Origin: Closterium sp. NIES-65
Taxonomy: Eukaryota; Streptophyta; Zygnematophyceae; Desmidiales; Closteriaceae
Reading direction: 5' to 3'
Length of the DNA stretch: 64,000 nt
Assembly: GCA_948144175.1 (NCBI GenBank)
Contig: CANXME010002057.1
Coordinates: 209,501 to 273,500 of the forward strand
This document shows, in pieces, positions 32,385 to 64,000 of this stretch (position 1 is the first letter of the stretch; each line of letters begins with the position of its first letter). The translations under genes were made by a program, and so were the position numbers. The notes beneath the pieces were generated by a model that searched no databases, had not been told where the DNA came from, and was given only the letters and a program-made list of their open reading frames with translations.

Positions 32385-32417
32385 CACCCCCATAGGCAAA
32401 GTGGGGGAGAACAAGGG

Positions 32418-39470: not shown

Positions 39471-39474
39471 AATG

Positions 39475-41179: not shown

Positions 41180-43693
41180 ATGGGGAGCTGCATGTCAGTC
41201 GAGGTAACGGTCGACAAGAAGGGATCTTCCACGAACCTTCGCAGCTCCGCGTCGTCCGCCACGTCAGCCGGAAAGAAGAGCTCCGCCGGCTCAGATGCTC
41301 CAAAGAAGAGCTCCGCAGGTTCCGGCGCGAGTTCCGCTCCCATCGTCTCCAATTCGTCAGCCTCAGGTACGGCCGAGACTTGCCGGTTGTATCATTGTCC
41401 TGGGGTCAACAGTTACCGTTGTCGCGCATTCCGGGGTGCACTTGACGCAGATTTTGCTGTTACCATCGTCGCGGATTTCGCAGTTACAAATGTCGCGGAT
41501 TTTCCAGATACCGTTGTCGCGGATCTCCTGAAGTGTACATTCCGTGGGTGCCGGTCGAACGAATCTCGAATCAGTAATAACACTGGTCCTCATGGAAAAA
41601 AAGCGAGCCTTCCCGGCCAGCCATTGGCCACTCTGTGCCGCGCACACGCCATAACCCTCTGAGAATCTTCCAAACATAACCCACTCCGCACGCGCACCGC
41701 CAGCAGTGCTGGCGCAGGCTTTTGAGCTGACAGAGAGTCGTCGTGCCGTCCCCCCTGATGCAGGCCTTCCGATTCTGCTGCCGTCCCGCCTGACGCAGGC
41801 TTCTCCGCTTCTCCTCCCGGCCCCCCTGACACCCCGCCGCAGGAACCTCACAACAACGACCACGAGCACCAGCCCTGCTGCAAGCTCTTGAGTTCACCAT
41901 CATCAATCCGTTCCCTCTCCGCTTCTCCTCCCGTTTCCACTAACGCCCTCCCCACAGGAGGCGTCACAACGACCAACAGCAGCGGGCCTGGTGGCGGCGG
42001 CGCGGGCAGCGCAAAGAAGTTCAAACTAGCAGAGCTGAAGGCGGCGACGAACTCGTTCAGCAAGAAGGGCGTGCTGGGCGAGGGCAGCTTCGGGGAGGTG
42101 TATCGGGGCACGCTGACGGACAAGGTGACGGGCGAGGTGACCAAGGTGGCTGTCAAAATGCTCAACGCGGAGAGCTCCCAGGGCATGGACGAGTGGCTGG
42201 TGAGTGAATGTAAACGGTCAGGTTCACATGGGCGGCTTCGGGTTGTTGTGAGGGACATTGAACGACAAGGCTAGAAGGGGAGTTGACCCGGAGAGCTCCC
42301 AGGGCATGGACGCGTGGGTGGTGAGTGGGTGGTGAGTGGAGTCGGAAGGAGCAGGGGTTGAGGGCAGCTATGGGGAGGTGCTCTAAGGGATCCTGAGTGA
42401 CAAGGCTACAGGGTGGGCATTAAGACGAGGCTCAAAAGGAAGGGCAGCAATGTGAAGGTATATCTGGGGGAGACACTGAGTGACAGGGCGACGGGCCAGG
42501 TGACCAAGGTGTCTGTAAAGTTCTGACGGACTCTTGTTGACTCTCGTTGACTCTGGTCCGCTGACCATCTGTCACACAACTAAACACCTCATTTGACCCG
42601 CTCCTCTCTACCACCTGCCGCCTCAACCCACCTGTCACAACCTTCCCCTTCCAGGCGGAAGTGCTGCTCTTGCCGAGCCTGAACCACCCGAACCTGGTGC
42701 GCCTGGTGGGGTACTGCGCGGAGAAGGGCGAGGCGCTGCTGGTGTACGAGCTCTGTGAAAACGGCAGCCTCGACGACAAGCTATTCCCCTGTGAGTCGCT
42801 CTTTCTTTGTATCGCGCCTACGTCTTCTTGCTCTCCCCTCAGCTTGTCTCTCCCCTTAATTGTCCCAGCCCTCTCACACTTCACCCCCTCCCCCCTCAGC
42901 CCCTCCCCCCTCAGCCCCTCAACCCCTTACCCCTCAACCCCTCAGCCCTCACCCCCTCCCTCTAACGCCCTCCCCTTCAACTCTTCAACTCCTCATCCTT
43001 TAATCCCCTCCTCTCAGCGCACGTGACTGGAAATCGCGCCTGCAACTAGCTCTCCGATCATCTTGTCCCCCCTTTCCTCTCGTTTTTTGGTAGGTTGATT
43101 GTGACTTTTCACAAAATCAACCTTAAAAAAAAAAAAAAAAACTGGAATTAGCGCCTGCAACTAGCTCTCCTCTCATTCCCACGCGCTCTCACAATTCACC
43201 ACCTCCCCCCTCCCCACCCACACATCCCCTGCCCAGCGCGCATGGAGGAGGCGTTCGACTGGATCTCCTCCGACAGGAACTAGCGCCTGCGACTAGCTCT
43301 CCACTCACCTTCTCCCCCCTCCTCTCCTCTCCTTTCTCCGCCTTTTCACCCTCCACCCACTCCCCCTTCACCCCCCTTACCTCCCTGCACAACCCCCAGC
43401 GCGCATGGAGGAGGCATTTGACTGGAACTCGTGGCTGCGGGTGGTGCAGGGCACAGCGGGTTTGATTTGACTGAAACCCCCTTTCCCCCTCCACAACCCC
43501 CTCCCCCTGTGCACAATTTCCCCCCCCAGCGCGCATGGAGGAGGTGTTTGACTGGAACTCGCGGCTGAAAGTGGTGCAAGGTACAGCGGGCGCGCTGGTG
43601 CATCTGCACGAGCACAACGTCATTCACCGCGACCTGAAACCGTCCAACATCCTGCTGGGAGATGTGAGGAGCGAGGGACGTATGGGTTGAGGG

Positions 43694-43762
<69 letters not shown>

Positions 43763-45673
43763 CTGCTGGTGCATCTTCATGAGCACAACTTGATTCACCG
43801 TGACCTCAAGCCGTCAAACATGCTGTTGGGGTAGGTGAGGAGCGAGCAATGTTGAGGTTGAGGTGTGTAGTGGGTGCACAGGTGCTATTGGCCTTCACAA
43901 TGCTGCTATGTGCACATGTGCTATTGGCCTTCACAATGCTGCTATGTGCACATGTGCTATTGGCCTTCACAATGCTGCTATGTGCACATGTGCTATTGGC
44001 CTTCACAATGCTGCTATGTGCACATGTGCTATTGGCCTTCACAATGCTGCTATGTGCACATGTGCTATTTCGTATGTGTGGATCGCTGACATTCCACACC
44101 CCCTTGGCACACTGCTGCTCTGAACAGACGCAATTCTTTGCATCGCTCATCTTTCCCACCCGGCACCTGCTGGGGTTGCTGTGCATGGGGCATGCACGGG
44201 ACATGGGGCATGGGGGCATGGGGCATGGGGGCGTGGGGCATGGGGCATGTTGGCATGGCAGGGTATGGAGGCGAAGCTAACAGACTTTGGGATGGCGAAG
44301 CAGGCAGCAGAGGGGGTGAGCCATGTGAGCACACGAGTCATGGGCACTCTGGGCTACCTCGACCCCGCCTACATGGAGACTGGTACGTCTGTGCTGCCGC
44401 TGCACTGCCCTTGCCTTTGAGACATCTCAAAAGTGACTTGGATATGGCCGGAGGGAGTGAGCCATGTGAGCACATGAGTCATGGGCACTCTGGGCTACCT
44501 CGACCCCCGGTCTACATGGAGACCGGTGCGTCCCTGCTGCTGCCCTTGCTGGGATACATACAAGCCACGCTTCAGCTTTCAGTTTTTCTTGTCGAGTTAC
44601 ACACATTTCACTCACTGCTTGCTCTAATTTCTTTCCCCCGTCCACTTCCTCCACCTCCCCTCCACTCCTCCCGCGGCCCTTGTTGCTAGGCTGTCTAGCT
44701 AGGTCGAATGCCGTATTTTCCTGCACGGCCAGTCTCTGCTTGAAGCTCTTTCTCCCCCCTCCTTCCTCCCACCCGCCCCCTTGATGCCAGGCTATCTATG
44801 GGAGAAGAATGATTTGCTTTTCTTTGGGGCCATTCCACTACAGCTGCTGACAGGGAAAGACACCCATTGCACTCTCTCCGTGCTGCTCTCACCCCCTTCC
44901 ACCCTCCCCATCCCTTCGCCCCCCTTTCACGGCCCTCCTGGCTGTCTACGGGAGAAGAGTGACGTGTTCTCCTTTGGAGTGGATCCTGCTGCAGGTGCTG
45001 ACAGGCAAGGACACCCATCCTTAACACTCTTACCCCCTTCCTCCCTCCCTTCTCCCTTTCCCTCCTCTCTTTTTCATTGCCCTCATTCATCCAGGCTGTC
45101 TTCGAGAAAAGAGTGACGTGTTCTCATTCGGCGTCATCCTGCTGCAGGTGCTGATAGGGAAGGACGCAGTGGATGATTGGAACATCAAGCTGGCAGCAGC
45201 CATGCACAAGCACCTGCACCCCAACGTTGCTGATCCTGACAAGCCAACTCCCCGTTCCACTTACCTTATGTACTCACTGCTCGTTGTTCCCTCCCGCTCA
45301 CCCCTGCTCCCCCCCCCCCCCCCCCCCCCTTGTCCCCCCTTCCCATCCCCCACTTCACCCCATGTATCTGCCAGGCTGCCTTCGAGAAAAGAGTGACGTG
45401 TTCTCATTTGGGGTCATCCTGCTGCAGGTGCTGACAGGGAAGGACGCAGTGGATGATCGGAACGTCAAGCTGGCAATAGCCATGCACAAGCACCTGCACC
45501 CCAACGTGGCGGACCCGGACAAATGGATCGACCCAAAGCTGCAGGGCAAGTACCCGCGGAAGGGCGCTCTCATGATGGCTGCGATCGCCAAGCAGTGCAT
45601 TGCTGATAATGCCGAGGACAGGCCGGAAATGAGCGACGTGGAGGAGTTTCTGAATGACATCCAGATGATGTAG
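41180..45673 (+). CDS. Receptor-like cytoplasmic kinase (RLCK-type Ser/Thr protein kinase)
   Basis: Predicted plant-type cytoplasmic signalling kinase. Six phase-compatible exons, 41180-41366, 41958-42199, 42655-42790, 43530-43663, 44262-44382 and 45375-45673, give 372 residues. The N-terminus MGSCMS fits N-myristoylation plus palmitoylation and so membrane attachment, as in plant RLCKs. No signal peptide or receptor domain is present. Kinase features in order are the Gly loop GEGSFGEVY, Lys in VAVK, helix-C Glu in [17 protein letters not shown] (TDFGMAK), activation segment [10 protein letters not shown], and RP in EDRPEM. The usual Glu of the APE-like motif (DPEY in relatives) is Ala, which may weaken the fold. 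Partial copies of exons 2, 4, 5 and 6 lie in the introns, so automatic gene models may differ. The family is clear; substrate and pathway are unknown. Confidence 0.88.
42280..42525 (+). repeat. Echo copies of RLCK exon 2
   Basis: After the true exon 2 donor (42200) come decayed copies: ggagagctcccagggcatgga near 42290 with its own gtgagt donor, gcagctatggggaggtgctc near 42365, and a longer copy (42440-42525) that still resembles the [17 protein letters not shown] part but ends in a stop. Confidence 0.8.
43026..43465 (+). repeat. Echo copies of RLCK exon 4 upstream of the true exon
   Basis: Two copies keep the acceptor and the ARMEEAFDW start (43237-43280 and 43400-43465) but run into stops. 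Three shorter copies of the actggaa...gcgcctgcaactagctctcc segment lie at 43026-43055, 43141-43170 and 43272-43302. A 9-bp inverted repeat (AGGTTGATT/AATCAACCT, 43092-43123) lies between the first two. The intact exon is 43530-43663. Confidence 0.85.
43696..43758. repeat. (GT)n microsatellite
   Basis: About 63 bp of GT dinucleotides in RLCK intron 4, directly before an echo of the exon 4 end. Confidence 0.97.
43759..43835 (+). repeat. Echo of the RLCK exon 4 3' end
   Basis: About 75 bp repeat the [18 protein letters not shown] part of exon 4 with substitutions. The donor is changed (ggggtaggtgagg), so the copy reads [14 protein letters not shown] and then stops. Confidence 0.85.
43884..44075. 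repeat. 36-bp minisatellite, five copies
   Basis: Five nearly identical 36-bp units beginning gctattggccttcacaatgc, followed by a partial unit. Located in RLCK intron 4. The period is a multiple of three and the unit has no stop in several frames, so it mimics repeated short proteins. Confidence 0.95.
44416..44525 (+). repeat. Palindrome and echo of RLCK exon 5
   Basis: Palindrome TTTGAGA-CA-TCTCAAA at 44416-44431, then a copy (44445-44525) of the exon 5 segment encoding [16 protein letters not shown] with one inserted C that breaks the frame. The intact exon is 44262-44382. Confidence 0.85.
44791..45250 (+). repeat. Three echo copies of RLCK exon 6
   Basis: Copies start at 44791, 44941 and 45095, each followed by the [13 protein letters not shown] segment. 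The third retains the acceptor and an open frame for about 50 codons to NVADPDK and could be spliced. The first two are broken. The intact last exon starts at 45375. Confidence 0.85.
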
Positions 45674-45754
45674 CGGAAGAAGAGGGTGGATAGGTGGGAT
45701 GTTCCAATCTTCAGTGCTGTGTTGAGCGGTGAAGTGCCCTGGAGGCTAGAGCTT

Positions 45755-46070
45755 CACCGGCTGGAAATGAGCGATGTGGAGGAGTTTCTGAATGACATCC
45801 AGATGATGTAGCAGGAGGGGCTGGATGGGTGGATGGGTGGGTGATGTTCCAATCTACAGTGCGGAAGTGCCCTAGAGGCTAGAGCTTCACCGCCCGGAGA
45901 TGAGCGACGTGGAGGAGTTGCTGAATGACATCCAGATGATGTAGCAGCAGAGCGTGGATGGGTGTGTGGGTGATGTTCAAGCGGCCAAGTGCCAGAGGCT
46001 AGAGCTTCATTGCCTGGTAATGAGCGATGTGGAGGAGTTGTTGAATGACATCCAGATGATGTATCAGGAG
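45755..46070 (+). repeat. Three tandem copies of the RLCK 3' end after the stop codon
   Basis: The segment encoding [15 protein letters not shown] plus its flank is repeated with a period of about 130-150 bp, near 45762-45810, 45896-45944 and 46018-46064. The first two keep the TAG stop and the last reads TAT. All lie downstream of the true stop (45671-45673), so they form part of the 3' UTR or flank. Confidence 0.88.
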
Positions 46071-46806
46071 GAGAGGGTAGATGGGTGGTTGGGTGCCGTT
46101 CCAACCTCCAGTGTGTTGCAGTGCATGATCCTAAGATCTGGTGGTTTTCGCAGCTGCTGTGTGCTGTGCAGCTCCCCGAGGGAGTTTTTGTGGCTGGCTG
46201 GGCAGTACGGCTCTGCTGCTGTGTTAGGAGGCCAGGCTAGGCACCCTGGAGGCTACAGCTTCACCCGAGCTGCATGGTTTGGGCTGGGTGGCTTTTGCGG
46301 CGGTTGTGTGGTGTGGCGTGCGCATCTCTCAAAGAATCGCTGGGCCGACTTGTCTGTGCTCGGCGGTTTATGACAGCCAGGGCTCCTCAAATAGGTTAGA
46401 AAACTGACGGCTCGAAGGGATATACCTGGCTCGTATTTCGAGCCTGCTTGGGACTAAATTATTACGGGGTTACTACCATATAGAATAGCTGGGTGCCATA
46501 ATATCAGGTTTGCTGTAGAGAAGGCATTTCCTGCTATTGTTGTTTGTCTGTGTCATACGGCGAAGTTCAAATGTCGGTGGCTATGGTAATCCCCGCTGTG
46601 TTTAGAGCAGCGTGCCCAGTCAATTACGAGGAAATGAACCACAGTGAATTCGCTCTACTGCCCCATGTTTCCGTGAGCAACGGGATGCGGGATTATCAGC
46701 AACAAGAACGCGAGACCATGAGTAACGGAAATGCAAGCAACAGGAGAGCGTGATTAGAAGCAACGGGAATGCGTGATTTAGTGGTTCCTCTTGCGACTTC
46801 TCCGCG
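46071..46806. other. Intergenic region before the O-fucosyltransferase gene
   Basis: No gene recognised. A short imperfect repeat (gcaacgggatgcggga / gcaacgggaatgcgtga, 46677-46780) lies just upstream of the start codon. Confidence 0.5.
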
Positions 46807-49800: not shown

Positions 49801-50058
49801 ATGAAGGAAAGGATACTGGGCTTTAAGCTGGTTCAAAGACCCAAGTCTTTTGAAGACCAGCCTTGGGCGGCGGTGCTCAAGCCTTACAAATTCCAAGACG
49901 ATGTGTCATTGACAGCGACTCTAGACAAGGCGATATGTGCCATAGCGGATGTGTTTCAAGGAACTGCCGCCTCGTCGTTTTCGCTAGATATCAGAAGGTT
50001 GAGAACCGGGCTTCGCTTGACAACATGTTCTGATACGGATATATGCACAAAAACATGA
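46807..50058 (+). CDS. GDP-fucose O-fucosyltransferase family protein (plant-type, PF10250-like)
   Basis: Predicted Golgi glycosyltransferase. Exon 1 is 46807-47487 (227 codons) with a hydrophobic segment at about residues 5-25, suggesting a signal anchor, then a low-complexity stem. Exon 2 (48168-48299) carries LSNRIRCIKNHLVVAGVFNRTLVVP, the N-terminal family signature (split here: LSNRIRCIKNHL, VFNRTLVVP). A 30-nt exon (48515-48544) is tentative. Exon 4 runs 48622-49522 with GVHWRRTDL and FLASDTDD. The last exon, 49780-50058, carries DKAICAIADVFQGT and SLDIRRLRTG, the C-terminal signature. The frame shifts near 49110-49140, so this copy is either damaged or contains an assembly error. The total would be about 670 residues. 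Target glycan or protein is unknown. Confidence 0.8.
47488..47930 (+). repeat. Intron 1 tandem repeats and echo of exon 1 end
   Basis: The intron begins with gtgtggtaaccaggtgg-type units. The exon 1 end DRYVLMDCHRNQ plus donor is repeated at 47619-47660. Units of about 17 bp (ggggtgtggtaatcagg) then fill 47695-47900. The unit resembles the exon/donor junction (caaccaggtg), suggesting that the array grew from it. Confidence 0.85.
48366..48440 (+). repeat. Echo of O-fucosyltransferase exon 2
   Basis: Nearly exact copy of the LVVPLRAHEVARHYDRRTFF part of exon 2 (48225-48310), including the ccggtgcgc donor, about 140 bp downstream. gctgctcgctgcttgctg repeats lie between and after. Confidence 0.9.
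49575..49662 (+). repeat. Echo of the O-fucosyltransferase exon 4 end
   Basis: About 85 bp repeat CLVKAMGMAGNISTMFLASD with its own gtgagag donor. The true copy is 49446-49522. Because the frame stays open it could be mistaken for an exon. Confidence 0.88.
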
Positions 50059-50603: not shown

Positions 50604-52737
50604 ATGGCGCAAGCGGAAGGGGGAGAACAGGTGGAAGGGAAAGCGAGGGGGGAAGACGAGAGGGAGCGGAAATATGGGGACGAGGTCGTGAGGAATCTGT
50701 TTCAGGGAGAAGAGGGTTTAGGGGGGACAGCGCAGGATGGGGAGCTGCGCGCGGGGAGAGGAGGGGCGAATGGAGGCGGAACGGGGGAGGGGAGCGACGA
50801 GGGGAGCCGGAGGAAGGACGCTGGGGTGAAGGACACGGGTGTATGGGTGGGGGAGGTGGGGGAGGGGGAGCAGCAGGGTAAGGAAGAGGAGCAGGAGGTG
50901 ATTCGAGAGGAGATCTCACCGCACAGAGCAGGTGCGAGGTGATGGATGGACGGTGAGGATTGAATTTCTGGGTCGATTCAGAAGGCGAGGGCTGGTTGGA
51001 GGACGCAGGGTGAGGGTTGTGGGAAGGGGCTTAGGGTTGGGGGTTTTGCAGCTGTTATGGGGACACTGTCAAATGGGCAGAATGGCTCGTTGCCTGACAA
51101 TATCTGATTGCCGCACAACTCTCGCCCTCTTATCTGAATGTTTGAGATTAGTTTTGAGAATTCTCAAAACATAATCTCAAACAAAATGATTGCCGCACAA
51201 CTCTCGCCCTCTTATCTGAATGTCTCATTCATCTCCTGACAATGTCTCATGCATTCCCTGCCAACGTTCCACTGCCACTCCCAGCTGCTGTCGTGCGTCT
51301 GCTGAGAGTGGAGCAAGGGGGAGCCTATGCCGACATTCTCTCAGGGGCAGCAGCAGTGGAGGGGCATTATTCATATCTTCTCCTGCTGTCCCTCCTTCCC
51401 CCGATCACTGCACTGCCATCCCCAGCCGCTGTTGTCCGTCTGCTAAGAGTGGAGCAAGGGGGAGCCTATGCCGACATTCTCTCAGGGGCAGCAGCAGGGG
51501 AGGGGGCGGGCGGGTGGGAGCTGGAGATGCAGTATGTGCGGCGCACGCTGGGCTTCGGGCTTTTGCCTCTGGAGGGGCGGGGAAGGCGCCATGTGACTGA
51601 GCTCGTGGCAGGTGTCACCCGGTGGAGGCGTTATCTGGACTTTCTGCTCTCGGAGTTTTTTTCGGGCAGCCTGAATGAGCTGGAGAGGATGGAGCCACTG
51701 CTGAAGCAGGTTTGTGCTGTGTAATGATGATGTGTAGGGGAATTTTCCCTGTCGCAATTACCTTGTGGGTAATTGTGCTGAGGGGAATTTACCTCCGTCT
51801 TCGCTATGTGGTACCGTATGCTGCAGTAGTGAGATTTCTTTTCTGAGCCGTGTTGCAGTCTCAGGAATCGGGATGCTGCTCTAGGCTTAATGGCGAGTGC
51901 ACTCATTTCGATTAAGTGTAGTTCCCCCCTGCCCCTTCTCCCCGCATCTCCTGCTATCCTCGTCTGTAGATTCTCCGATTGGGGATGTTTGAGCTCGCTA
52001 AGATGGACACACCACCACATGCTGCAGTCAACGAGGTGAGTGCAGGTGGAGTCAAAGCAGTCAATGTAGGTAGTCAAATTATTCAGTGAATCTAAACTCA
52101 CCAATGCAGGTGGAGTCAACGCAGTCAACGAGGTGAGTGAAGGTGGAGTCAATGCAGTCAACGAGGTGAGAATCAATGCAGTCGATGTATTCATTGTATC
52201 TAATCAGCTGCACGACCATTCACCATTGTCCCTTCTGTCCGCTGCTCCTTGCAGGCGGTCAAGCTCGCTCGGGCAGCCTTAAGGCCCGGAGCCGCCTCAT
52301 TGGCCAATGCTATTTTGCGGGCAGCTGTTCGCGCACAGGTGCGCCACAAAAGCTGTAGGTCCGAATACGAGAAACATAGAGAGAAAGGGGCACTGGGGCT
52401 GCGGCGACTTCAGGGTTTAGGTTTTGGGGCTTCCTACCCTACTGGTCGAGTCGTTACTCATGCTAGGAACCGTACAGTACAGTACGGCTGACCTTGTTCT
52501 ATACGCAACCCACTAACTCCTACCGCCCCCCCCCTCTCCCCTCGCGCCCTTCTTTTCCCCTTATCCATCCCCCGCCTCCTCCTCCCTGCTTCTACTTCCC
52601 GGTACAACATCAGGAGCAAGGCCCACTGCCGGCCCCGTCGCTGCACGATGCAATGACGGACCGGGACAAGGCGCGGGCCCTCGCCACGCTGCACTCTCAC
52701 CCCGTGGTACGTGCGTTGGTGGGGAGGAGGCGGCGTG

Positions 52738-52769
<32 letters not shown>

Positions 52770-55700
52770 CTCACACACACACACACACACTCACACACGC
52801 ACGCTCGCACGCACGCTCGCACACACACGCATACACATGCATGCACATGCATGCATACATGAATGGATGAATGAACAGATGCACTTCACATGCACACAAG
52901 GCGCGGGCCCTCGCCATCCTGTGCGCACGCCCCTTGGTTGGTATGTGCAGTGCAGTGGCGCACACATACATCCGGCACTGTGAAAGGCTGGCTGGATCAA
53001 GTTTTGAGACGTCTCTAAACTAAAGGGCTGGCTGGATTACATCTCACAATCTCAAGGAGCAAGGCGGGATATGAGTTGCAGTTTCCATGGTCACTCACTC
53101 ACACTCCCCTTTCTCCGTTCCACTCCTTGCTGTTCCCTCTCCCCTCCTCTCCTTGGTGCCCTCTCTTCTGTCCGCCCTGCAGTGGATGGTGCGGCGGTGG
53201 GCCGACAGGCTGGGGTGGCGAGAGGCGGAGCGGCTGATGGAGAGCAACAACGCCCGCCCCGTCTTCTCCCTCAGGTGAGACAGTTTCTGAGGTGCTTCAA
53301 AAGAATCGTCTCACTTGCGCCTCAAGAGCTGACAGGCTGGTGTGGCGAGAGGCGGAGCGACTTATGGAGATCAACAACGCCCGCCCCGTCTTCTCCTTGA
53401 GGTTCTGCGTTCGATATTGTCTCAGACAATTGCTTCTATTCTACTTTATGTATTCTGGCCTTAAATTCTGATTCTCTCAGACTTCCCAACCATGATGCTT
53501 GAGAAGTCTGAGAAGACCACCATGGCATGGCAGTGCATGAGGATCAACACTGCAAGAGGCCATCAGATCACACGCAGAACCGGAGGGCTGCAGCGCCTAA
53601 AAGTAGCTTCCTCTCGCCCCCTCTCCCATTACCACCATGACCATGCATCAGGGCCAACACTGCCAAAGGGGTATCGCGTTCTGATCTGCACTCCTTGCTG
53701 CTGGCGCTCCCCGAGGTATGCTTCTGCTCCGCATGCTGTCTCCATGCCACGTCATGCCGTCTCCATGCCACCTCATGCCATCTCCATGCCACCTCATGCC
53801 GTCTCCATGCCACGTCATGCCGTCTCCATGCCACCTCATGCCGTCTCCATGCCACCTCATGCCGTCTCCATGCCACCTCATGCCGTCTCCATGCCACCTC
53901 ATGCCGTCTCCATACCACCTCATGCCGTCTCCATGCCACCGCATGCCGTCTCCATGCCACCTCATGCCGCCTCCATGCCACCTCATGCCGTCTCCATGCC
54001 ACCTCATGCCGTCTCCATGCCACCTCATGCCGTCTCCATGCCACCTCATGCCGCCTCCATGCCACCTCATGCCGTCTCCATGCCACCTCATGCCGTCTCC
54101 ATGCCACCTCATGCCGTCTCCATGCCACCTCATGCCGCCTCCATGCCACCTCATGCCGTCTCCATGCCACCTCATGCCGCCTCCATGCCACCTCATGCCG
54201 TCTCCATGCCACCTCATGCCGCCTCCATGCCAAATCCATGCCAGCTCATACTATCTCCATGCCACCTCGTGCTGCCTCATGCCACCTCATGCCACAACTA
54301 TGCCAGCTCGTTCCAGCTCATGCAAGCTCTTGCGAGTTCCTTATGTGTCTATGGTCTGTGTGTGTGTGTGCGCCCCTGCCCGCCCCTCTCACCAACCACA
54401 GGTGGAGGTGGAAGATTCACCGTACCTGGACGATTTCATTCGCGTAAAAGCGGGCATGCAGCATGTGCTCACAGCGGGGCTCATAGAGGATGGGTCGTGC
54501 AACGTGCAGGATGAGAGTGCAGGTGGGTGGGGGTGTGGTGGCTGCTTGCAGTGGAAACCTTTAACCAGGTAACAGGGTAACCAGGTAATCAGGCGGGCAT
54601 GCAGCACGTGCTCACAGCGGGGCGCATAGAGGATGGGTCGTGCAACGTGCAGGATGAGAGTGCAGGTGGGTGTATGCTGGTGGGGTTGCAGGTAACAAGG
54701 TAACCATGTGGGGGGAATGCAGGTGGGGGAATGCAGGTAACCAGGTGGGCATGGAGCACCGCAGGACTCATAGAGGACGGGTCGTGCAATGTGCAGGATG
54801 AGAGTGCAGGTGGGGGTGTGTGTGGTGCTGGGGTTCTGGTGGTGGGGTTAGTTTGCTCGTCCGCTTCCCTCCTCTCGTCCTGCCCCTCCTCCCTCTGCAC
54901 GCTAAGCATAGATCTGGTGAATTCTTAGAATTTGCAAAACCTACCTGATCCCCTCCCTCCGTCTCCCTCCACCACCTCCCGCCATCTCCGTGCATCACCT
55001 CGCACTAACTCCAAGCACAGGGCTGGTGGTGAAGGTGCTGGCGCCCCAGCCAGGGGAGACCGTGGTGGACTGCTGTGCTGCGCCCGGGGGCAAGGCCATG
55101 TATGCCGCTGGGCTCATGCAAGGCTCAGGTGGGCAATAGTGCGTGTGTGTTACAGCTCTTTTCAATGCCACCACCACCCGTTTGACTTCATCTCATCCCA
55201 TCTCATCTCATGTCTTCTCACCCCATCCCGCACCACTCACCACGCACCTCTCATATCTCAGTGCTCACCTCTCACCACTCCTTTTCTCCCTGTCTCTCTC
55301 TTTCCGTCGCATTCTCTCACCCTCGTGGCCGGCAGGGCGGCTGGTGGCAGTGGATGTGAACGAGGGGCGGGTGAGGATTGCGGCGCAGGCACTGCACCTG
55401 TTGCACATCCCCCCTCATTTTCCATCTGACTTCTCACCTCTCCCCCTCACCTCTCACCAGCAGGGCGGCTGGTGGCAGTGGATGTGAACGAGGGGCGGGT
55501 GAGGATTGCGGCGCAGGCACTGCACCTATTGCACATCCCCCCTCATTTTCCATCTGACTTCTCACCTCTCCCCCTCACCTCTCACCGGCAGGGCGGCTGG
55601 TGGCAGTGGATGTGAACGAGGGTTTGGAGAGGATGGTGGCGCAGGCAGCACTGCACAGCACAGCGCTAGGGACCGCACTTATTGCCACACCCCCCCTCAA

Positions 55701-57733
55701 TTTCCATCTCACTTCTCTCCTCTCCCCTCTCCCCTCTCCCTCTCTGCAGGGCGGCTGGTGGCAGTGGATGTGAACGAGGGTTTGGAGAGGATGGTGGCGC
55801 AGGCAGCACTGCACAGCACAGCGCTAGGGACCGCACTTATTGCCACACCCCCCCTCAATTTCCATCTCACTTCTCTCCTCTCCCCTCTCCCCTCTCCCTC
55901 TCTGCAGGGCGGCTGGTGGCAGTGGATGTGAACGAGGGGCGAGTGAGGATGGTGGCGCAGGCAGCACAGCGCCAGGGGCTGCAAAGCATGGTGGAGTGTG
56001 TCTCTTCTGACCTGAGGACTTACTGCTGTAAGGGATCGCGGCTTAAACAGGGTTCTGTAGAAGGCTTGATGCTTCACTGTATAGTAAGGCTTGGAGCTCA
56101 CGGTCGCAATCGCAAGCCTTACACTTCCGCTGTAAGGGTCGCAATGTACTGGAACACATCTTAACACATGGATTGCATGAGCAGTGGCAGGAACCCCCCA
56201 TCAATATGCTTAACCTCTTGGCTGCAGCCTGCCCCAAGTTATTTCTCAAATGTTTAGAGGAGAGGTGCATTGTTCTTTGCAATGGCTCACACAGCCCTAC
56301 TGCGGTCCCCCGTCCACCCCCACCCGTCCTGGCACCCTGTTTCCCCGCCCCACCCACCCCACCTCACCCCATCCCTCCCCACACACTGTTCCCCTGCAGG
56401 CGTCATCTCCCCTGCGTGAGACAGCAGACCGAGTGCTGCTGGATGCACCCTGCTCCGGCCTTGGGGTGCTGGCCAAGGTGGGTATGGGGGAGAGGTGACT
56501 GTAAGCAGTGGTGACTGTATGACGAGGTGATTGAGGGGAGAGGTGATTCTAAGGAGTGCTGCTGCTGGATGCGCCCTGCTCCGACCTTGGAGTGCTGGCC
56601 GAGGTGGGTGGGGCGAGGTGATTGTAGAGAGTTGAGGCAGGCTGTGGAGGGGGAGACAGTCTAGTAGGTGCCTCAAACACCCCCCCCAGTTCGCCTTCCT
56701 CCCCCCCCCTTCGCCTTCCTCCCCTCCCCTTCCCGACCCGCCACACAGAGGCCGGATCTGAGGTGGAGGGGGAAAAAATCCACTAGGCGCCTCAAACCCC
56801 CCTAACCCTCTCCTCACATCCCCTCCTCACACCTCACCTACAGAGGGCGGATCTGAGGTGGAGGAGGACAGTGGAGGGGGAGGCGCAGCTCACAGCACTA
56901 CAGGACGACCTGCTGGACGCTGCTGCCAGGTATGATGCTGATGTGGATGCTGACTTGGATGATCCTGCCAGGTAGGATGCTGATGTGGAACGCTTGTGCC
57001 AGGTGGGATGCTGACATGGACGCTGCTGCCAGATGACATGCTGATGGGGATGCTTCTGCCAGGTAGGATGCTGATGTGGATGCTGCTGTTGTTGCTATGT
57101 AAGATGAGCCTGCCACAGCGGGAGGCGATGCTCACGTGACTTCCCCATCTCTCCCCTTCCCCCCTTCCCATTTCCCCTGCCTTCTACCCCTCCCCCTCCC
57201 CCACTCCCCCTTTCCGTTCATCCAATCGCCACCTTGTTGACCAGTCTGGTGCGGCCGGGGGGATTGCTGGTGTACTCCACGTGTTCCATAGAGCCATCGG
57301 AGAATGAGGATAGGATCACCACCTTCCTTCAAACACACCATGTATGACCCTTGCTCATCCCGTTCTCTCGTATCATTCTGTGTGGAAAAAAAAAAGTGGT
57401 GTTGTTGGTTTGTTCATTTCTTTCTTTCATCCTTTCTTTTTTTTGAAGTGTCATTGCATGTGGTAACAAGCATGTGGCATGCTGAGGTGTTTTACTGAGT
57501 CATGCCTGTCGTTTCATTCAGTTTGTATGTCACGTTTTCTCATTTTTTCGTGCTCATGCGAGGTAGCCAAGTCTTTCTTTCCTGGCTGGTTGCAGGAGTT
57601 TGTATTGGAACCACTAGATGCTTCAGTATTGCCCGAAGCGATGATCTCACGCCTTCGTTGCTTTGCATCATTGCCGCATTGCCACGCAATCGATGGGGCA
57701 TTTGCTGCTCGTTTGCGAAGGCGGGAGTTGTGA
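50604..57733 (+). CDS. RsmB/NSUN-type rRNA (cytosine-5) methyltransferase with NusB-like N-domain
   Basis: Predicted SAM-dependent rRNA m5C methyltransferase, like bacterial RsmB and its plant organelle homologues. Fourteen exons join in phase: 50604-50931, 51426-51709, 51970-52035, 52255-52338, 52614-52706, 53183-53274, 53652-53715, 54402-54522, 55021-55128, 55908-56027, 56425-56477, 56844-56929, 57245-57341 and 57596-57733, about 577 residues. NusB-like helices are encoded by exons 2-4 ([23 protein letters not shown]). SAM motif DCCAAPGGK is in exon 9, VAVDVNEGR in exon 10, DAPCSG with one catalytic Cys in exon 11, and YSTCS with the other in exon 13. The C-terminus has [10 protein letters not shown]. 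The charged N-terminus is not obviously a transit peptide, so exon 1 or the start may be wrong. Nearly every exon has a decayed partial copy nearby. Confidence 0.87.
51105..51230. repeat. Direct repeat with a nested double palindrome in intron 1
   Basis: About 37 bp starting tgattgccgcacaactctcg occurs near 51105 and again at 51187. Between lie the perfect 20-bp palindrome GTTTTGAGAATTCTCAAAAC (51151-51170) and outer arms GTTTGAGATT/AATCTCAAAC (51140-51149, 51173-51182). Confidence 0.9.
51285..51362 (+). repeat. Echo of methyltransferase exon 2 start
   Basis: Copy of the acceptor and the [19 protein letters not shown] segment, 141 bp upstream of the intact exon (51426-51709). It is in frame with exon 1 and has a working-looking acceptor, but no donor is evident. 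Confidence 0.9.
52100..52172 (+). repeat. Echoes of the exon 3 end and donor
   Basis: gcagtcaacgaggtgag, the exon 3/intron junction (52025-52041), recurs twice, near 52119 and 52154, with ggtggagtcaa spacers. Confidence 0.8.
52738..52812. repeat. (CA)n microsatellite
   Basis: Interrupted CA repeat, then cgcacgctcgcacgc repeats, in intron 5 of the methyltransferase gene. Followed near 52899-52935 by an echo of exon 5 (aaggcgcgggccctcgcca). Confidence 0.93.
52983..53040. repeat. Direct repeat with central palindrome in intron 5
   Basis: ggctggctggat occurs at about 52986 and 53027. Between the copies is GTTTTGAGAC-GTCTCTAAAC (53001-53020), a 10+10 palindrome with one mismatch. Confidence 0.85.
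53275..53403 (+). repeat. Inverted repeat and echo of exon 6
   Basis: GTGAGAC (53275-53281) pairs with GTCTCAC (53308-53314). A copy of exon 6 (gacaggctgg to ttctccttgagg, 53331-53402) follows, out of frame and lacking a clear donor. Confidence 0.82.
53475..53580 (+). repeat. Inverted repeat and echo of exon 7
   Basis: 11-bp arms TCTCAGACTTC/GAAGTCTGAGA (53475-53485, 53503-53513) precede a decayed copy of exon 7 (aggatcaacactgcaagagg, near 53541). The intact exon is 53652-53715. Confidence 0.7.
53730..54245. repeat. 21-bp minisatellite, about 24 copies
   Basis: Tandem units of tccatgccacctcatgccgt plus one base fill most of intron 7. Units alternate mainly at one base (ccgtc/ccgcc). Because 21 is a multiple of three and the unit lacks stops, five long frames on both strands are open. 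None is supported as a gene. Confidence 0.97.
54590..54812 (+). repeat. Two echoes of exon 8
   Basis: Copies of [20 protein letters not shown] with the gcaggtggg donor lie at 54595-54668 and 54745-54812. Spacers contain ggtaaccaggt-type repeats. The intact exon is 54402-54522. Confidence 0.9.
55336..55830 (+). repeat. Four echoes of the SAM-binding exon 10
   Basis: Acceptor plus [11 protein letters not shown] are repeated at 55336, 55464, 55592 and 55750 before the intact exon at 55908. Copies 1-2 and copies 3-4 are near-identical pairs (period 128 and 158 bp), so duplication occurred in steps. All four could be used as acceptors in phase, but only the last continues to a conserved downstream sequence. 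Confidence 0.93.
56025..56142. repeat. Direct repeat with central inverted repeat at the exon 10 donor
   Basis: gctgtaaggg(a)tcgc occurs at 56025-56039 (carrying the exon 10 donor) and at about 56130-56142. Between are perfect 10-bp arms GTAAGGCTTG/CAAGCCTTAC (56084-56093, 56113-56122). Confidence 0.75.
56550..56780 (+). repeat. Echoes of exons 11 and 12
   Basis: ctgctggatgcgccctgctccg (split: ctgctggatgcgcc, ctgctccg) at 56560-56605 repeats exon 11, and ggatctgaggtggagg at 56752-56770 repeats the exon 12 start. Both are broken. Donor-region repeats of exon 12 (ctgccaggtaggatgctgat) follow at 56930-57080. Confidence 0.8.
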
Positions 57734-59090
57734 CGTGAGTGTTTCCTTGGTTTTGTCATAGGTTATATTTGTCAGATGTAGAGGAAGCAATAGAAGTAAA
57801 AATGGAGAGACTGCTGGTCATGTGCTGTACTGAACTGCAGTAACGAGCTACAGAGGTTTTTTTTACTGAAGTACCCCCCACGGCATTCTGGCTACGGGGT
57901 TCTGGGCACCCCGAAACTTGCTGCTTTTCGCTGTCCACTTATCTTGTCGGGAGGAGTTCCTCGTGCAACGCCTGGACTGGACGGCGATCGTCTGTTCCTT
58001 TTGGCCCTAGTGTTGACAATTTTAAAAACGGCTGGGCAGCAATGGGATGGATTGGAATGTACATTTCGTCCCCCAGCCGTCCCTGGAACGCAGTTTCGCC
58101 CACTCTTTCCCCCTCAACCACCTTGGGTGCACGAAATGCTGGAGTGCGCGTCAGTGACATGAGGAAGGGACTGGGTGTAGAAACAAGACTGTCCCGCCAG
58201 CAGCCTCGCGTTGACGACAGGCCACACATGCCACATCAGGACGAGACGAGACACATTGACTAATCACTTGTCGCCTTTCCCTCGCTCGGAGAAACCGAGG
58301 CTGTGCAATTTCATCCACCAAACCTGCACCGCGCAGTTCAGCCATCGTACCGCGTGAAACCTTGGGATTTCGAGTTACTGTGCCTGGGGTTTTCCGCGTG
58401 CTCTTGGGACCTGCGGGGGTGTTCTTTTCTTCCTCCTCCCCATCTCACTTCTGTTCCTCAGCTCTGCAGCCAGCGATCACCGCCTAGTCCACCACGTCAC
58501 TCCGACACTCACTCTGCTGTGTCTAGGCTAGGCGAGCCACCTACATCCCAGACGTCAAGACAGTCCATGTGTCCGAGTTGGGAAGCGCATCCCGCGCGTG
58601 GGTTTCCTGTCGAGTGACGTTGTCACCAGGGCTTGAGTGAGCTGTGCTCGTGCAGTATATTTCTTCACTCTCCGAAATGGTTAGGAATTATATCTGATTA
58701 AGAGACCTAAGTTTCGGGCTACTTCTAGTTGCTTTTCTCTAGTTTTTCCGTCAGGCAATATAGCAATCGCTTCGTCGCCCCCCTCGCTGCAAGACTGCAA
58801 GGCATGTAGATGATACGAGCCGCCAATCGCAGCAGCGTCAGTCTTCACAGCATCAATCCCAGCCCTTGAATAGAGCGTTTTGGGAGATAATTAGTAGCAT
58901 TTTGATACGGAAACATAACAATGCTGCCACGCCCATAAGGTCCCGTACCCCTAGTCCGTATTTCACTTCTTCGAAATCCACTTACGTTAATTAAACACTT
59001 AGACTGATCGTGCAGCTTTATTTATTTGTCGTTTACCTGGGAAGCTTGGCTGGGGAAGGATAACATCCTTGGCATCTGCTGTAGCTGGCA
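57734..59090. other. Intergenic region
   Basis: About 1.35 kb between the methyltransferase stop and the next start codon. Open frames of 60-104 codons are present but none resembles a known family or shows a gene signal. It should hold the 3' UTR of one gene and the promoter of the next. Confidence 0.5.
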
Positions 59091-62000
59091 ATGTCGTGCC
59101 AGGGATTGGCCATGCTTGATCCTCCTAGAGACAGGCAGGGCTTCCCCGAAGCTGCAGGACGCGGGGATTTTGTAGGTTCGGGACACAGCGGAGGAGGTTC
59201 GGCTAGAGGAGCAGCAGGTTCGGGAGGGAGAACCGACTCCGCCTATGGAGTCGGGGACGGAGGCGGAAGCGGGGAAGGAGGCGGAGCAAGCGGAACAGGA
59301 CCTCCTGCATTGCCTGCGCGCGGAGGCGGTCGAGTTTCCGCCATCCGCAGCTTCTTTCCGCGGAGCCGATCGGTGTCGGTGGATTATTCCGCCTCTGCCT
59401 CCTCTCCGCCAGGTATCCCCGGAAGCAGCGCCAGTACCAGGCGCAACTCCGAATCTGAAGATCCCCGCCGATCCTCCCCCCTCGGTTCCCCTTGGGGGCA
59501 GCGCGGCGGGGGAGGCGGAACGGGGGGGGACCCGCGGCAAGCGTCTCGACCTCCGCCGCGCTACGATCCGCGCATGGGTCGGCATTGTTCCCCTCTCGGC
59601 GGTTCCGCGCTGTCCCCCGCTCCGCGACCCCCATCCCCGCTTCTCGAGGCATCGCTCCCCGTCTCAGCGGTCCAATCAGACCCTAGCGCCTTCGGCGGCG
59701 AAAATGGAGTATCCGGGGGACCAATGAACAGCTCCATTAGACAACTGCGGTCGAACCGCCATCTCCGTACACAATCCGTCGACGTATCGTCCGTCGATTT
59801 CGCCTTCCACGTCCCCGATCAAGGGGGGCTGGAGGCGCAGGGGGCACCGGGCGCAGCGGAAGGAGTCGGCGCAAGGGGAAGTGTGGTGGAAAGGGCTGCA
59901 GGCCCGCCACCAAAGTCCCCCTCGGGGTTCAGATTAGGGTTCGGGCTGGGAATCCGACCCAGCAGTAGTCACGGCGGCCGCCCCAACACCAGCCATGGGC
60001 GCCTGGGAGGCGGAGCAACGTCGGCGAGACCGGGAAGCGGCGGAAGCAGACCGGGAAGCGGGGGGAGCAGACTGGGGAGCGCGGCCGAGGGGAACGGCGG
60101 TCCGGAGCAGAGTCAGGGGCGCGGCGGGCGAGCGCACGGGCGGCGGGCGTCGGTAGACTTCGGGTCGATGGGCGCAGGAATCCCCGCGTCCTCCAGCGAG
60201 CCGCTATCCCCGTTCGAAGCAGCCAAAGCGTCGCTCTTTGCGAGTCAGCAGCGCCAGCGGGCTGGGATGGGGGGAGGGATGGCGGAAGGGTTGGGGGGAG
60301 GGGCGGGCGGAGGGGTACCGAGGGGCAGCAGCGTCGACGGCTCTGGGCGCGCGGTTGAGTCCCCCCGGACAGCGGCTAGGCGCGGGCTGCAGTACGGGTT
60401 TGGTTCGGATAACCGCGGAATGGAGGTTCGGGCTGAGGCTCGGAGCCCTATAATGCTCGGAGCACGCGCTCGGCACAGGCTCTCCGCAGGTTCGGACTCT
60501 GTTGATTCAGGTGGGAGCGACTCTCCTGGGTTTTCACCTGAGAGTTCGGTGTCTCCGCATGGAGGGATGCTGCCGGGGAGCAGGAGCACGGGGAGCGCGC
60601 CGATGGGGGGATTCGCGGGGGGGATGGGGGGTGCGCTGTCGAGCTGGGGCTCTCGGCGCGCGGGGATCAACCCGCCGCGGCTGCAGGTGGAGGTTCACGC
60701 GGAAGAGGAGGAGGGGGAGGGGGAGGGGGAGGGGGAGGGGGAGGAGCGTAATGTGTTAGTGATTGAGGAGGGGGAGAACGAGGAGGAGGAGGGGTATTCG
60801 AAGGACGCACTGTCCCCGCTACCAGGAGCAGAGGGAGAACGACAAAATCGCCCGCCCACAGCGGGAAAGAGCAAGTCGCCTCTCAAGTCCCGGATAGCCG
60901 CAGTGGCGCGGACCTTAAAGCACGGGTTGCACAGCCCCGCCGCTGGCGCCATGGGGGGAATCGGAAACAGGTTCCGCGGGGTTGGTGGTGGCATGGGGAT
61001 GGGGGGGATCGCGGGGGCGTTAGGCGGCGGGGGAGGCGCGGAAGCGGGGGGGGCTGGCGCGGGCGGGGGGCGCAGGCACAGGCGTGCAATCTCTGTGGAT
61101 TTCAACCAGGCGCCAGTGTTCACCGCGGCTTCCCCGCGTGGGGGGCCGGCGGAAGGGGCGGAGCCAGCAGAGGGGGATCTCTCCCTGTCCCCTCTCTCCC
61201 CCCCATGCGCTATATGCCTCTGGCGCAGACCCCGTGTTTGACGCCATGTCTCCCCGCCTGCTCACCCCCAAGGGTTTCAGCACTGGGTTTGGCGCCGCTG
61301 CTGGCCCCGGGCCTGCTGGCTCGGGACTGTTAGGCTCGGCAGCGCCAGGCTCGGGCGCTGCTGCAGTGGCTGGGCGGCAGCTGGCCGGCCAGCACCGCCG
61401 GCACCACTCGTTCGCGGACCAGTCCTGGGCGGGAGGGATAGGGGGAGCAATAGAGTCCCCCAGGCGGATGGGGAGCGGAGGGGGCGGGTCCATTCTTCCG
61501 CCGCGCAGCCCCCTAACCATGGGGGGAGGGGGCAGCGGCGCGTGGGGAGATAATCTAAATTTAGGGGAATTTACCCCATCTGCTTTGCAATCACCCAAGC
61601 CCCCGCGCTCGCCTTATCACAACGAATTCTCCCAAGACAGAGCAGCAGCCGCGGCTGCCGCCGCTGGGGGGAATGCGTCCGCTGCTACGGGCGCAGGGCA
61701 GCTCCCCCTCACGCCTGGGCGGAACCGCGCGTTGATTGCGGCGCGCGGAGGCGGGGGGGAGGCGGGGGAGCGGTGATGCGGGGCAGCGCGCGGGAGCGGC
61801 CGTCCCCCGGGATGGACGAGGACGACGACGTGTGGGGCGCTGCTTCTGCCATGGCAGGCGGAGCAGGGGAGGCGGGGGGAGCAGGGGGAGCAGGGGGCGG
61901 AGCGGGGAAGGCAGGCGGGGCGGGAGGGGCAGGGGTGCGTGCGGGTGGGGGAGCGTATGAGCTGCGCAAGGCGGGGAGCAGCAGCCGGTTGGAGCAGGCG

Positions 62001-64000
62001 CTCCTGCCAGACCACCGCGTGCAGGGCTCCCTGGCCTTCAACCGCCTGCACTCCGCGCGCGACCCCCACGCCAGCCCCCCCGCGCCCGCCTCCCCCCTCA
62101 CCCCCTCCGGCAGGGCGCTCGGCGGGGGGTATCAGGGGTCTGGGCGGGGAGGTGGTGGGAGAGGCGCGGAGAGGGGTGGGGCGGGTGCGGGGATGGGCGC
62201 GGGGCGGGGGGGCATGGGACGTATGGGCGCTACATCTCCTGCTGCTGCTGCTGGTGCGCGCGGCAGTGGTGGGGGCGCTAGGCAGCGGCGGCAGGGGGGG
62301 AGTAGTGCCTGCTTGCTCGTCCCTGGATAGCGCTGGGCTGGACTCCTCCCCCCTAGCTGTTCTCTCTCACGGCTCTATCCCTGATCGCCCCAGCACCGCC
62401 TCTGGCCCCAGCGGTAGGCTCAGGGCATGCAGCGTGGGGGCGAGTGAGGGTGGATGGGGGGAGGAGCGACGAGAGGGCGGCGGGCGTGGGTGGGTGGGAG
62501 GGTGGAGACGGGGAAGGGGGGGGAGGGGGAAGGGGAGGAGCGAGAGGCGCAGCAGCAGCAGTGGCAGAGGAGGCAGGGGAGAGGACAGGCGGCTGGCGGT
62601 CGGTGCAGGTGGGTGGGGGGGAGACATCATTGGCAGTAGCAGCAGCAGCAGCAGCGATGTTACTGGCATCAACCCTACCAGTTCTGCTACTGCTAATGCC
62701 AGTAGCGGCGACGGCGGTAGCAGCAGTGGGAACAGTGGTAGCTCTGTGCATAACCTGAGGAGGAATATGAGTACGAACTGCCTTATTGAGGCGGGTAAGG
62801 GCGCAGGAGCAGGGGCGGGAGGAGGAGGGATGGGAGGCGGAGCAGCAGGGCAATCAGGTGGAATCTCAGGTGAAAGCACAGGGCTGGATAATCAGGCACA
62901 GAGGCACGCAGGGCAGAGGGGGGGAAGGGGTGCGGAGGGACAGGCAGCGCGGGGGGGGGTCGGGGGGGAAGGTTCCAGGCGGGGCGGAGGGGATGCGGGA
63001 CGGGGGGAGGTGGGGGAGTGGGGGAGGGGATGCGGGTGGAGAGGCGGCAACACAGTGGATCCCCCATGCAGAGCAGTTTCTCAAGAGCCTGAGTCAGTAC
63101 ATCAGCCGGGGGCTTACAGGGGAGCTGGGGACGTATGGAGGCGATGGGGAGGGCGAGAAGGGGGATGCTGAGGCCGACATGTGGCAGGTAAGTGCGGTTA
63201 TACGTCTCGTGTGAGTTTGAGCGTGTGTTGTGAGTCGGTGTGTGTGGTGTGAGTGTTAGAGTGAAGAGGCATCATAGCATCCTGAGCCAGTACATCAGCT
63301 AAGGTGTCACAGGGGAGCCCCCATCTTGCACCCATCCTCATCTATCCCCACACCTCCCCACCCATTTCCACCCACTTTCTCCAGGTGATGAGCTCTGGCA
63401 GCATGTGGTGGAGAGATTTCATTCCTGCGCATGCCGTATGACGACGTGAAGAGCTTATACTCTGTCAGCGCCACCAAGAGCAACAATCTGTCAGACTCTT
63501 ACTCACCTCTCTCCACCCCTCCTCACCCCTCCCCACCAGGTGATGAGCTCTGGCAGCATGCGGTGGCGAGACTTCATCCTGCGCATGCCGTACGATGATG
63601 TGAAGAAGTTCTATTCGGTCAGCGCCACCAAGATCGGCAGCGGGCGGTACGGCGTCATTCGGACTTGTCTCAGCCGCAAGACTCGTGTGGTGCTGGCGTG
63701 CAAGACGATAAGGAAGGACCAAGTCAAGGTGAGGCTGGGGAGGGGGGAGGGTGGGGGGGGTTGGGGAGGTAGGAGAGGAGGGAGGAGAGAAGGGGAGGGG
63801 AGGGACTGGAGGACGTGGTCGGAAATTGGGTTAAGGCACGTGCGGCTCTGGCTTCATCAGCACGTGCCGCTCTTACAAGACTCACGTGATAAAAGTGTAG
63901 TTTTGAGACTGTCTCAAAACTACGCTTACTATCAATTGGGAGGAGGCATGTACTGCTCTGGCTTCATCAGCAAGTGCCGCTCTTGCAAGACTCGCGTGAT
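59091..64000 (+). CDS. Protein kinase with long low-complexity N-terminal region, 3' end beyond the window
   Basis: From ATG 59091 a 716-codon frame, Gly/Ser/Pro/Ala-rich and probably disordered, runs to 61241. Coding-like sequence then continues in a second frame (61200-61770), back in the first (61773 to about 62290), and onward to 63187, where a clear gtaagt donor follows HAEQFLKSLSQYISRGL. The frame changes may be small introns or homopolymer errors. The exon 63540-63728 (63 codons) starts the kinase domain: MPYDDVKKFY, Gly loop GSGRYGV and Lys in ACKTI, in the style of CDPK/CaMK-like kinases. The rest is outside the window. Four copies of an R-x-x-S-V-D motif (S96, S229, S354, S668) stud the N-region. 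The kinase call is firm; the N-terminal structure is tentative. Confidence 0.65.
63385..63480 (+). repeat. Echo of the kinase exon start
   Basis: The acceptor plus VMSSGSM and the MPYDDVK-equivalent sequence are repeated 155 bp upstream of the intact exon (63540), with one inserted T (ttcattcctg) that creates a stop. Confidence 0.92.
63840..64000. repeat. Direct repeat with central palindrome at the window end
   Basis: About 46 bp beginning gctctggcttcatcagca occurs at about 63845-63890 and 63955-64000. Between is a perfect 13-bp inverted repeat GTAGTTTTGAGAC/GTCTCAAAACTAC (63897-63909, 63911-63923). The repeat may itself be a decayed echo of the kinase exon (cgcaagactcgtgtggt). Confidence 0.9.

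Follow-up and report, generated by a model that had tools for sequence, protein, structure and literature searches.

The window, the 64,000-bp stretch of Closterium sp. NIES-65 DNA that was analysed, carries in its part beyond 40 kb a putative kinase exon, an RsmB/F-like methyltransferase exon and a series of sites at which a short hairpin lies between two direct copies of its flanking sequence (D-hairpin-D'), with both copies on the forward strand. Seven inverted repeats of this kind had been named in a preliminary description, and all of them are present at roughly the positions given there, the one reported at 63897 actually spanning 63893-63927. Neither Rfam at gathering scores nor a tRNA search yielded any match on the analysed DNA.

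At site A, a left copy of 37 bp (51105-51141) is identical at 37/37 positions to the right copy of the target duplication (51187-51223). The 45-bp insert between them (51142-51186) is an AT-rich hairpin, and its palindrome (51139-51183) consists of a core nested in a core, GTTTGAGA-TTA-[GTTTTGAGAATTCTCAAAAC]-ATAA-TCTCAAAC. Site B comprises a left copy of at least 67 bp (63824-63890), which matches the right copy (63934-64000, cut by the window end) at 58/67 positions, and a 43-bp hairpin insert (63891-63933) whose palindrome has 17-bp arms with one mismatch and obtained the top score in the palindrome scan. At site C, copies of about 18 bp (52983-53000 and 53023-53040, 15/18 identical) enclose the palindrome AGTTTTGAGACGTCTCTAAACT (53000-53021), which contains one mismatch. 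The left copy at site D is about 105 bp long (44310-44414) and by our reading represents a kinase exon continuing into its intron; it agrees with the right copy (44451-44556) in 90/114 aligned columns. The 36-bp spacer of this site (44415-44450) contains the palindrome TTTGAGAcaTCTCAAA at 44416-44431, which is followed by 19 bp before the right copy begins.

Sites E, F and G lack the core sequence shared by these four. Site E lies in the methyltransferase exon, where 76-bp copies (53201-53276 and 53328-53403, 69/76 identical) flank a 51-bp spacer (53277-53327) with the arms GTGAGAC...GTCTCAC and a 26-nt loop; the segment 53183-53275 gave a match to the Pfam family RsmF-B_ferredox with an E value of 1e-4, which is below the curated cut-off. 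At site F, the left copy of 36-60 bp (43026-43085), which looks like an echo of a kinase exon, is 89% identical to the right copy (43141-43190) over 36 bp and matches at 43/61 positions over the longer span, and the insert is a 55-bp hairpin (43086-43140) with a poly-A run at its 3' side. Site G was absent from the preliminary description and was found in this analysis as a marginal case: copies of about 19 bp (51736-51754 and 51781-51799, 16/20 columns identical) flank an insert (51755-51780) that consists of the hairpin CAATTACCttgtgGGTAATTG plus 5 bp. The palindrome at 56084-56122 (inverted repeat 10/10, loop of 19) is accompanied by weak flanking repeats. The hairpin fills the spacer except for 3/45 bp at site A, 8/43 at B, 1/22 at C and 5/26 at G, and the repeats adjoin it. 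With borders set by hand, the duplications measure 18, 19, 37, at least 67 and about 105 bp, and 36-60 bp at site F.

What the sites A, B, C and D have in common are AGTTTTGAGAC-like arms in near-perfect palindromes. Sequence is shared only over the inner 7-11 bp of the arms, and the outer arms vary between sites. The core had been described as present at four sites, which is correct for both arms in exact form only at two of them (51152 and 63901), whereas the others are inexact, an 18-mer being matched at 44416 with two mismatches and at 53001 with one. The octamer TTTTGAGA occurs six times between 40 and 64 kb, where 0.70 copies are expected, and all six copies lie inside the four core palindromes. 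Non-palindromic copies of TTTGAGA (46327, 47416, 47932, and 56244) are free of adjoining repeats in 4/4 cases, a count to which no random control belongs.

The association between hairpins and flanking repeats was evaluated against random sites in two ways. In a loose anchoring test with 1600 random sites as controls, from which the loci themselves were not removed, the flank P values were 0.0019 at 44416, 0.0056 at 53275, 0.011 at 63897, 0.019 at 51140 and 0.026 at 43092, and higher at 53001 (0.067) and 56084 (0.23). In a strict anchoring test with 4000 random sites, from which the loci A-G were excluded and for which the hairpin borders were set by hand, P was below 0.05 at 63897 (0.0045), 51140 (0.012), 53001 (0.038), and 51755 (0.042). 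The palindromes at 56084 (0.19), 53275 (0.40), 44416 (0.60), and 43092 (1.0) failed this test because their hairpins do not extend to both repeat edges. In this test, a score of 11 is attained by about 5% of random sites and a score of 37 by 1%. Among the four core palindromes, A and B are thus clear under strict anchoring, C is marginal and D fails, with a combined Fisher value of 6e-4. The proposed placement of inverted repeats between direct repeats is therefore supported for the core set, albeit on few sites that were partly chosen by the preliminary description itself, and it is weak at 56084. At 43092, the repeats are real, but the hairpin is only loosely anchored to them.

To assess how palindromic the spacers are, each was compared with 1000 length-matched random segments, with the restriction that the palindromes had been preselected and the P values thus depend in part on that selection. 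They were below 0.001 at 53001, 0.001 at 63897, 0.002 at 51755, 0.004 at 51140, 0.006 at 43092 (0.007 in a separate test of echo spacers) and 0.022 at 44416. At site E, the flanking repeats were confirmed, but the spacer is palindromic only at chance level (P 0.40, and 0.36 in the separate test). Six candidate sites thus have a palindromic spacer, of which A, B, C, and D carry the core, and F and G do not.

It had also been suggested that the palindromes could be the source of the exon echoes in this region. This does not apply to most of them, as only 2 of the 16 tested spacers among the local repeat echoes are palindromic beyond chance. The list of 16 is a lower bound, since it lacks the sites A (absent also when the search was repeated), C, and G and has D merged into a longer alignment; with A, C, D, and G added, 6/20 spacers are palindromic, C and G having originally been found via their palindromes. 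The many echoes with non-hairpin spacers indicate that a general duplication process is present in the region. Median repeat identity was 83 for repeats with a hairpin (n=7) and 92 for those without (n=12; P 0.13), a comparison of hand-entered values in which site F was entered as 80 (versus 43/61, or 89% over 36 bp) and which left out the pair 44599/44860, pairs with negative gaps, and gaps above 160.

The GC content of the inserts is clearly low at three of the seven sites, namely A (0.24, P 0.002), B (P 0.031), and F (0.24, P 0.0003), and weakly low at C, D, E, and G (P 0.06-0.14). When the six inserts A-F were searched for donors as exact words within 2 kb, no match of even 8 nt was found for B, and the matches of D, E, and F did not exceed 8 nt. 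Among random segments, 45/300 had a longest match of 8 nt or less, in a control that was unmatched for composition, with AT-rich words being rarer here. For the inserts of A and C, the main match is to one another, over 10 nt.

Our leading explanation, to which we give slightly less than even confidence, is that hairpin DNA was captured at staggered breaks, resulting in partially tandem duplications with hairpin filler, by a one-step insertion at each convincing site. Nicks 18-105 bp apart would open the duplex, fill-in of the overhangs would duplicate the target, and short, mostly AT-rich hairpin DNA would be joined between both ends, which would generate the D-hairpin-D' arrangement. Break repair in plants reportedly leaves partially tandem duplications with filler, in work ascribed to Vaughn and Bennetzen in 2014 and to Schiml et al. 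in 2016. Direct copies of tens of bp around a short insert are what we find, at strict P values below 0.05 only at A, B, C, and G, and the variable duplication length fits break offsets rather than a transposase with a fixed target site duplication. As the same inner arms AGTTTTGAGAC recur at four of the six sites, we infer that the captured DNA most likely came from a repeated palindromic source, for example the palindromic repeats of an organelle or a nuclear hairpin of high copy number. Precedents are the partially tandem duplications reported for rice (PMC7407515) and the organelle palindromes located within the nuclear genome of Volvox (PMC2670323). Capture is further favored by the near-complete filling of the spacer at A, B, C, and G, the echoes with non-hairpin spacers, the low insert GC, the outcome of the donor search and the TTTGAGA copies free of adjoining repeats. 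Against capture, one and the same core would not be expected in random filler at four of the six sites, D, E, and F are non-significant under strict anchoring, with the spacer of E not palindromic beyond chance, and the set of sites is small and partly preselected. The earlier view of an insertion with target duplication agrees with the anatomy, the rest of the earlier interpretation being less well supported.

The recurring core could also mark a dedicated ultra-short mobile palindrome of about 20-45 bp that is moved by an enzyme acting in trans, through integrase activity or target-primed reverse transcription, with long and variable target duplications. We consider this distinctly less probable than capture. 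The core common to four sites that are each flanked by duplications, the confinement of TTTTGAGA to palindromes, the core nested in a core at 51139-51183 and the poly-A at the end of site F would all suit such an element, and the yeast GC42 cluster, a 42-nt palindromic mobile cluster, provides an organelle precedent (PMC4478555). However, the differing outer arms leave no common element end visible, the duplication length ranges five-fold, a long poly-A tail is seen only at F, and the core is missing from F and G. For the 20-base core pattern, there were no matches in IMG/VR and 3 loci in GTDB contigs versus about 1 expected by hand arithmetic, which is near chance, and these results have no bearing on eukaryotes. 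A dedicated tiny mobile element is thus possible but unproven, and it appears doubtful that a nuclear family with the AGTTTTGAGAC/GTCTCAAAACT core is spreading in the genes of Closterium, with 18-100 bp of target duplicated per insertion; such a family would rank with the smallest mobile elements of any nuclear genome and would integrate by a novel long-stagger route.

Chance is a similarly unlikely explanation: in a region rich in short duplications, with 26 local repeat rows in 24 kb, some of them overlapping, certain palindromes would fall between copies and would then have been picked. A loose score of 15 is attained by about 5% of random sites, and four of the seven sites of the preliminary description fail the strict test. 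Of 96 palindromes between 1 and 40 kb, 6 have a flank score of at least 12, the loose score of site G, though none reaches 20. Between 40 and 64 kb, the palindromes at 62686 (score 17) and 57469 (score 14) even outscore site G, and were set aside by eye as simple-sequence. Set against this are the Fisher value of the four core palindromes, which were chosen by motif, and the fact that the top two short-loop palindromes by score between 40 and 64 kb are both among the sites. Least probable is local template switching, in which the polymerase copies back and resumes upstream, so that inverted and direct repeat arise together. Template switching is known to produce quasi-palindromes, and at A and B the whole-junction fold does take in a few bp at the end of the left repeat. 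In its simple form, however, this process needs an arm derived from the flank, and the left arm is absent beyond the right copy where this is visible; one core at four sites would not be predicted either. The low GC content of three of the seven inserts and the lack of a local donor (none above 8 nt within 2 kb for B, D, E, and F) disfavor it as the origin of the arms, which speaks against the hairpin-driven template switch proposed earlier, within a search of exact words in 6/7 inserts and a control unmatched for composition. A sequencing-adapter artefact was considered as well.

Taken together, the earlier observation mostly holds and is partly confirmed, and its interpretation is partly supported. 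Should the core prove to lie between duplicated targets throughout the genome, it would be a marker for staggered-break repair in a close algal relative of land plants, would help to distinguish hairpin capture from a minimal mobile element, and would reveal one way in which duplicated gene fragments come to lie in introns.

MITEs and introners are longer elements with constant ends. Like the Closterium sites, they are inverted-repeat insertions in genes, including those of algae, but their target duplications as summarized in PMC9860276 measure 3-9 bp where present, whereas the duplications found here are at least 18 bp long. Ranging from 18 to about 105 bp, these are not the fixed short duplications of DNA transposons or MITEs, and the differing outer arms are not constant terminal inverted repeats. 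The variable target duplication is shared with LINE- and SINE-type retroposons, but a 3' poly-A or conserved tail is not, as a long A run occurs only at site F, 1/7. Among the abstracts covered by the literature search, none describes a palindrome in nuclear DNA with long target duplications around it. The preliminary statement that no described element has this form was too strong, as short mobile palindromes of organelles (PMC4478555, PMC2670323) and partially tandem duplications in rice (PMC7407515) have been described. The GC42 clusters of yeast mitochondria resemble the Closterium sites in their tiny palindromic unit, flanking direct repeats and unit mergers, but are GC-rich and mitochondrial, with AG or ACT as direct repeats (PMC4478555). 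The organelle palindromic repeats of Volvox are hairpins averaging 50 nt with copies in the nuclear genome (PMC2670323) and thus, as in Closterium, short hairpins that a green alga carries in its nuclear DNA, an organelle origin of the Closterium hairpins being a possibility only. They differ in their loops of 3-5 nt and belong to a different lineage, and the terms 'direct repeats' and 'target' do not occur in that paper (PMC2670323). Although hairpin filler with a recurring core, as seen in Closterium, is absent from the short description of the rice duplications (PMC7407515), these plant partially tandem duplications, as outlined there, share with the Closterium sites the arrangement of short direct duplications whose copies are separated by an insert.

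All seven short inverted repeats of the preliminary description exist (43092, 44416, 51140, 53001, 53275, 56084, and 63897). The core attributed to four of them, at 44416, 51151, 53001, and 63901, holds as a set of similar (A)GTTTTGAGAC arms, but both arms are exact at only two, these being the two occurrences of the pattern. Allowing up to three mismatches in the core 18-mer added 44416 and 53001 (shuffled sequence would give 0.02 matches), and all six copies of TTTTGAGA in 40-64 kb lie inside the four core palindromes (0.70 expected under an order-2 model). TTTGAGA occurs in four copies outside palindromes, with adjoining repeats at none of them (0/4). At 51139-51183 the palindrome has a nested structure in which the outer arms GTTTGAGA/TCTCAAAC are a near repeat of the inner core, an arrangement suggestive of insertion of one unit into a second or of a merger of the two. 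Two more TCTCAGAC-type palindromes, without adjoining repeats, are present just downstream of site 53275, at 53416-53430 and 53475-53513.

The palindromes had also been described as lying between direct-repeat copies. We searched for repeats ending at the left edge of the palindrome and restarting at its right edge, with tandem repeats masked. Under loose limits (12 and 25 bp; 1600 random sites, with the loci themselves among the possible controls), this was borne out at 44416 (P 0.0019), 53275 (0.0056), 63897 (0.011), 51140 (0.019), and 43092 (0.026), but not at 53001 (0.067) or 56084 (0.23). Under strict limits (6 and 9 bp; 4000 control sites excluding 51755 and all noted loci but 56084; hairpin borders set by the analyst), anchoring was significant at 63897 (0.0045), 51140 (0.012), and 53001 (0.038), and was not significant at 56084 (0.19), 53275 (0.40), 44416 (0.60), and 43092 (1.0). 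Site 51755, newly found with a flank score of 12 in the scan described below, gave 0.042, and the combined strict values (Fisher) were 6e-4 for the four core sites and 1.2e-3 for all eight sites. That scan, which was independent of the noted sites, covered all 134 short-loop palindromes left unmasked in the window; a flank score of 12 was reached by 6 of 96 in 1-40 kb vs 7 of 38 in 40-64 kb, and a score of 20 by 0/96 vs 4/38, one of these four (44463) falling within the duplicated block of 44416. Two palindromes outscoring 51755, at 62686-62706 (17) and 57469-57483 (14), have CAG-rich and pyrimidine-rich surroundings and were excluded by eye as simple-sequence.

The palindrome fills the spacer between the repeat copies except for 3 of 45 bp at 51140 (spacer 51142-51186), 8 of 43 bp at 63897 (63891-63933), 1 of 22 bp at 53001 (53001-53022), and 5 of 26 bp at 51755; at 44416, the spacer extends 19 bp beyond it. 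Compared with 1000 random segments of equal length, spacer palindromicity had P ≤0.022 at these five sites and at 43092, and did not exceed chance at 53275 (P 0.40). The target duplications measure 37 bp (51140), at least 67 bp (63897), 18 bp (53001), ~105 bp (44416), 76 bp (53275), 36-60 bp (43092), and 19 bp (51755). GC content of the inserts is clearly low at 51140 (0.24, P 0.002), 63897 (0.35, P 0.031), and 43092 (0.24, P 0.0003), and weakly low at the other four (P 0.06-0.14).

Closterium is a unicellular zygnematophyte alga forming a species complex, of which four assembled strains have 438-975 Mb and 47-64% repeats (PMC10407611). FtsH is encoded in the first 40 kb of the window (Pfam AAA and Peptidase_M41), which also hold several Copia stretches, including a reading frame at 32596-34290(-) with up to 97% identity to Closterium sp.; among the best 120 of 8000 scored protein matches, 119 are named Closterium and one is without source, which is how the window's own protein is reported. 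Related Copia stretches within 603-39709 include 20253-27633 vs 32256-39709 (82%) and 603-6806 vs 33476-39593 (84%), and additional Copia-like frames lie at 11280-17129. In 40-64 kb, kinase-like and RsmB/F-methyltransferase-like exons (Pfam, some under the curated cut-off) are accompanied by numerous partial exon copies; near-tandem exon-like segments are seen at 55329-55970 and at 45618-46110, the latter taking in the end of a kinase reading frame.

The short-range duplication rate in 40645-64000 is high, with 26 local direct repeat rows in 24 kb, partners within 1.5 kb, some overlapping, and many representing exon parts. The palindromes had been suggested as a possible source of these exon echoes. 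Sixteen of the 26 rows have 10-160 bp spacers, and 2 of the 16 (43026 and 63824) are palindromic at P<0.05 in a listing that is incomplete, site 51140 being absent from it; adding 51140, 53001, 44416, and 51755 gives 6/20, with 53001 and 51755 discovered via their own palindromes. A 72-bp duplication (48231-48302/48366-48437) is 100% identical across a 63-bp spacer whose hairpin is not significant (P 0.08). As palindromic spacers are few and this identical pair has no significant hairpin, hairpins accompany a minority of echoes and do not account for them in general.

For a hairpin with one duplicated target copy on each side, the simplest single event would be insertion at a staggered break with both overhangs filled in. 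Because the core is common to four sites, the inserted DNA would have been drawn from a repeated source, and capture of hairpin DNA is the origin that we tentatively favor. That source could be passive, with organelle palindromes or a nuclear repeat taken up as filler. An active tiny element as the source appears less likely. The duplications are long and variable in length, which disfavors a fixed-stagger transposase. Chance together with selection is an unlikely account. The evidence base is one 64-kb window with few sites, an initial set picked by eye, and one site cut at the window end. Template switching, the other origin suggested earlier, is improbable, its simple form being disfavored by the lack of any local donor found within 2 kb of the six inserts searched (all except 51755): at 63897, no 8-nt match was found within 2 kb, the longest match within this distance was ≤8 nt at 44416, 53275, and 43092, and the main match of the 51140 and 53001 inserts was each other (10 nt). 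Equally match-poor segments made up 45 of 300 random controls, which were chosen without matching their base composition to that of the inserts.

A family of nuclear palindromes associated with target duplications of long and variable length does not appear in the excerpts of PMC2670323, PMC4478555, and PMC4524435, which describe related palindromes. In yeast mitochondria, GC42 is a mobile palindrome of 42 nt, and GC clusters have AG or ACT repeats on their flanks (PMC4478555), while an algal mitochondrion contains palindromes whose arms hold repeated units (PMC4524435). In Volvox, both organelles carry palindromes of ~50 nt, and the authors attributed nuclear copies of these to DNA transfer (PMC2670323).
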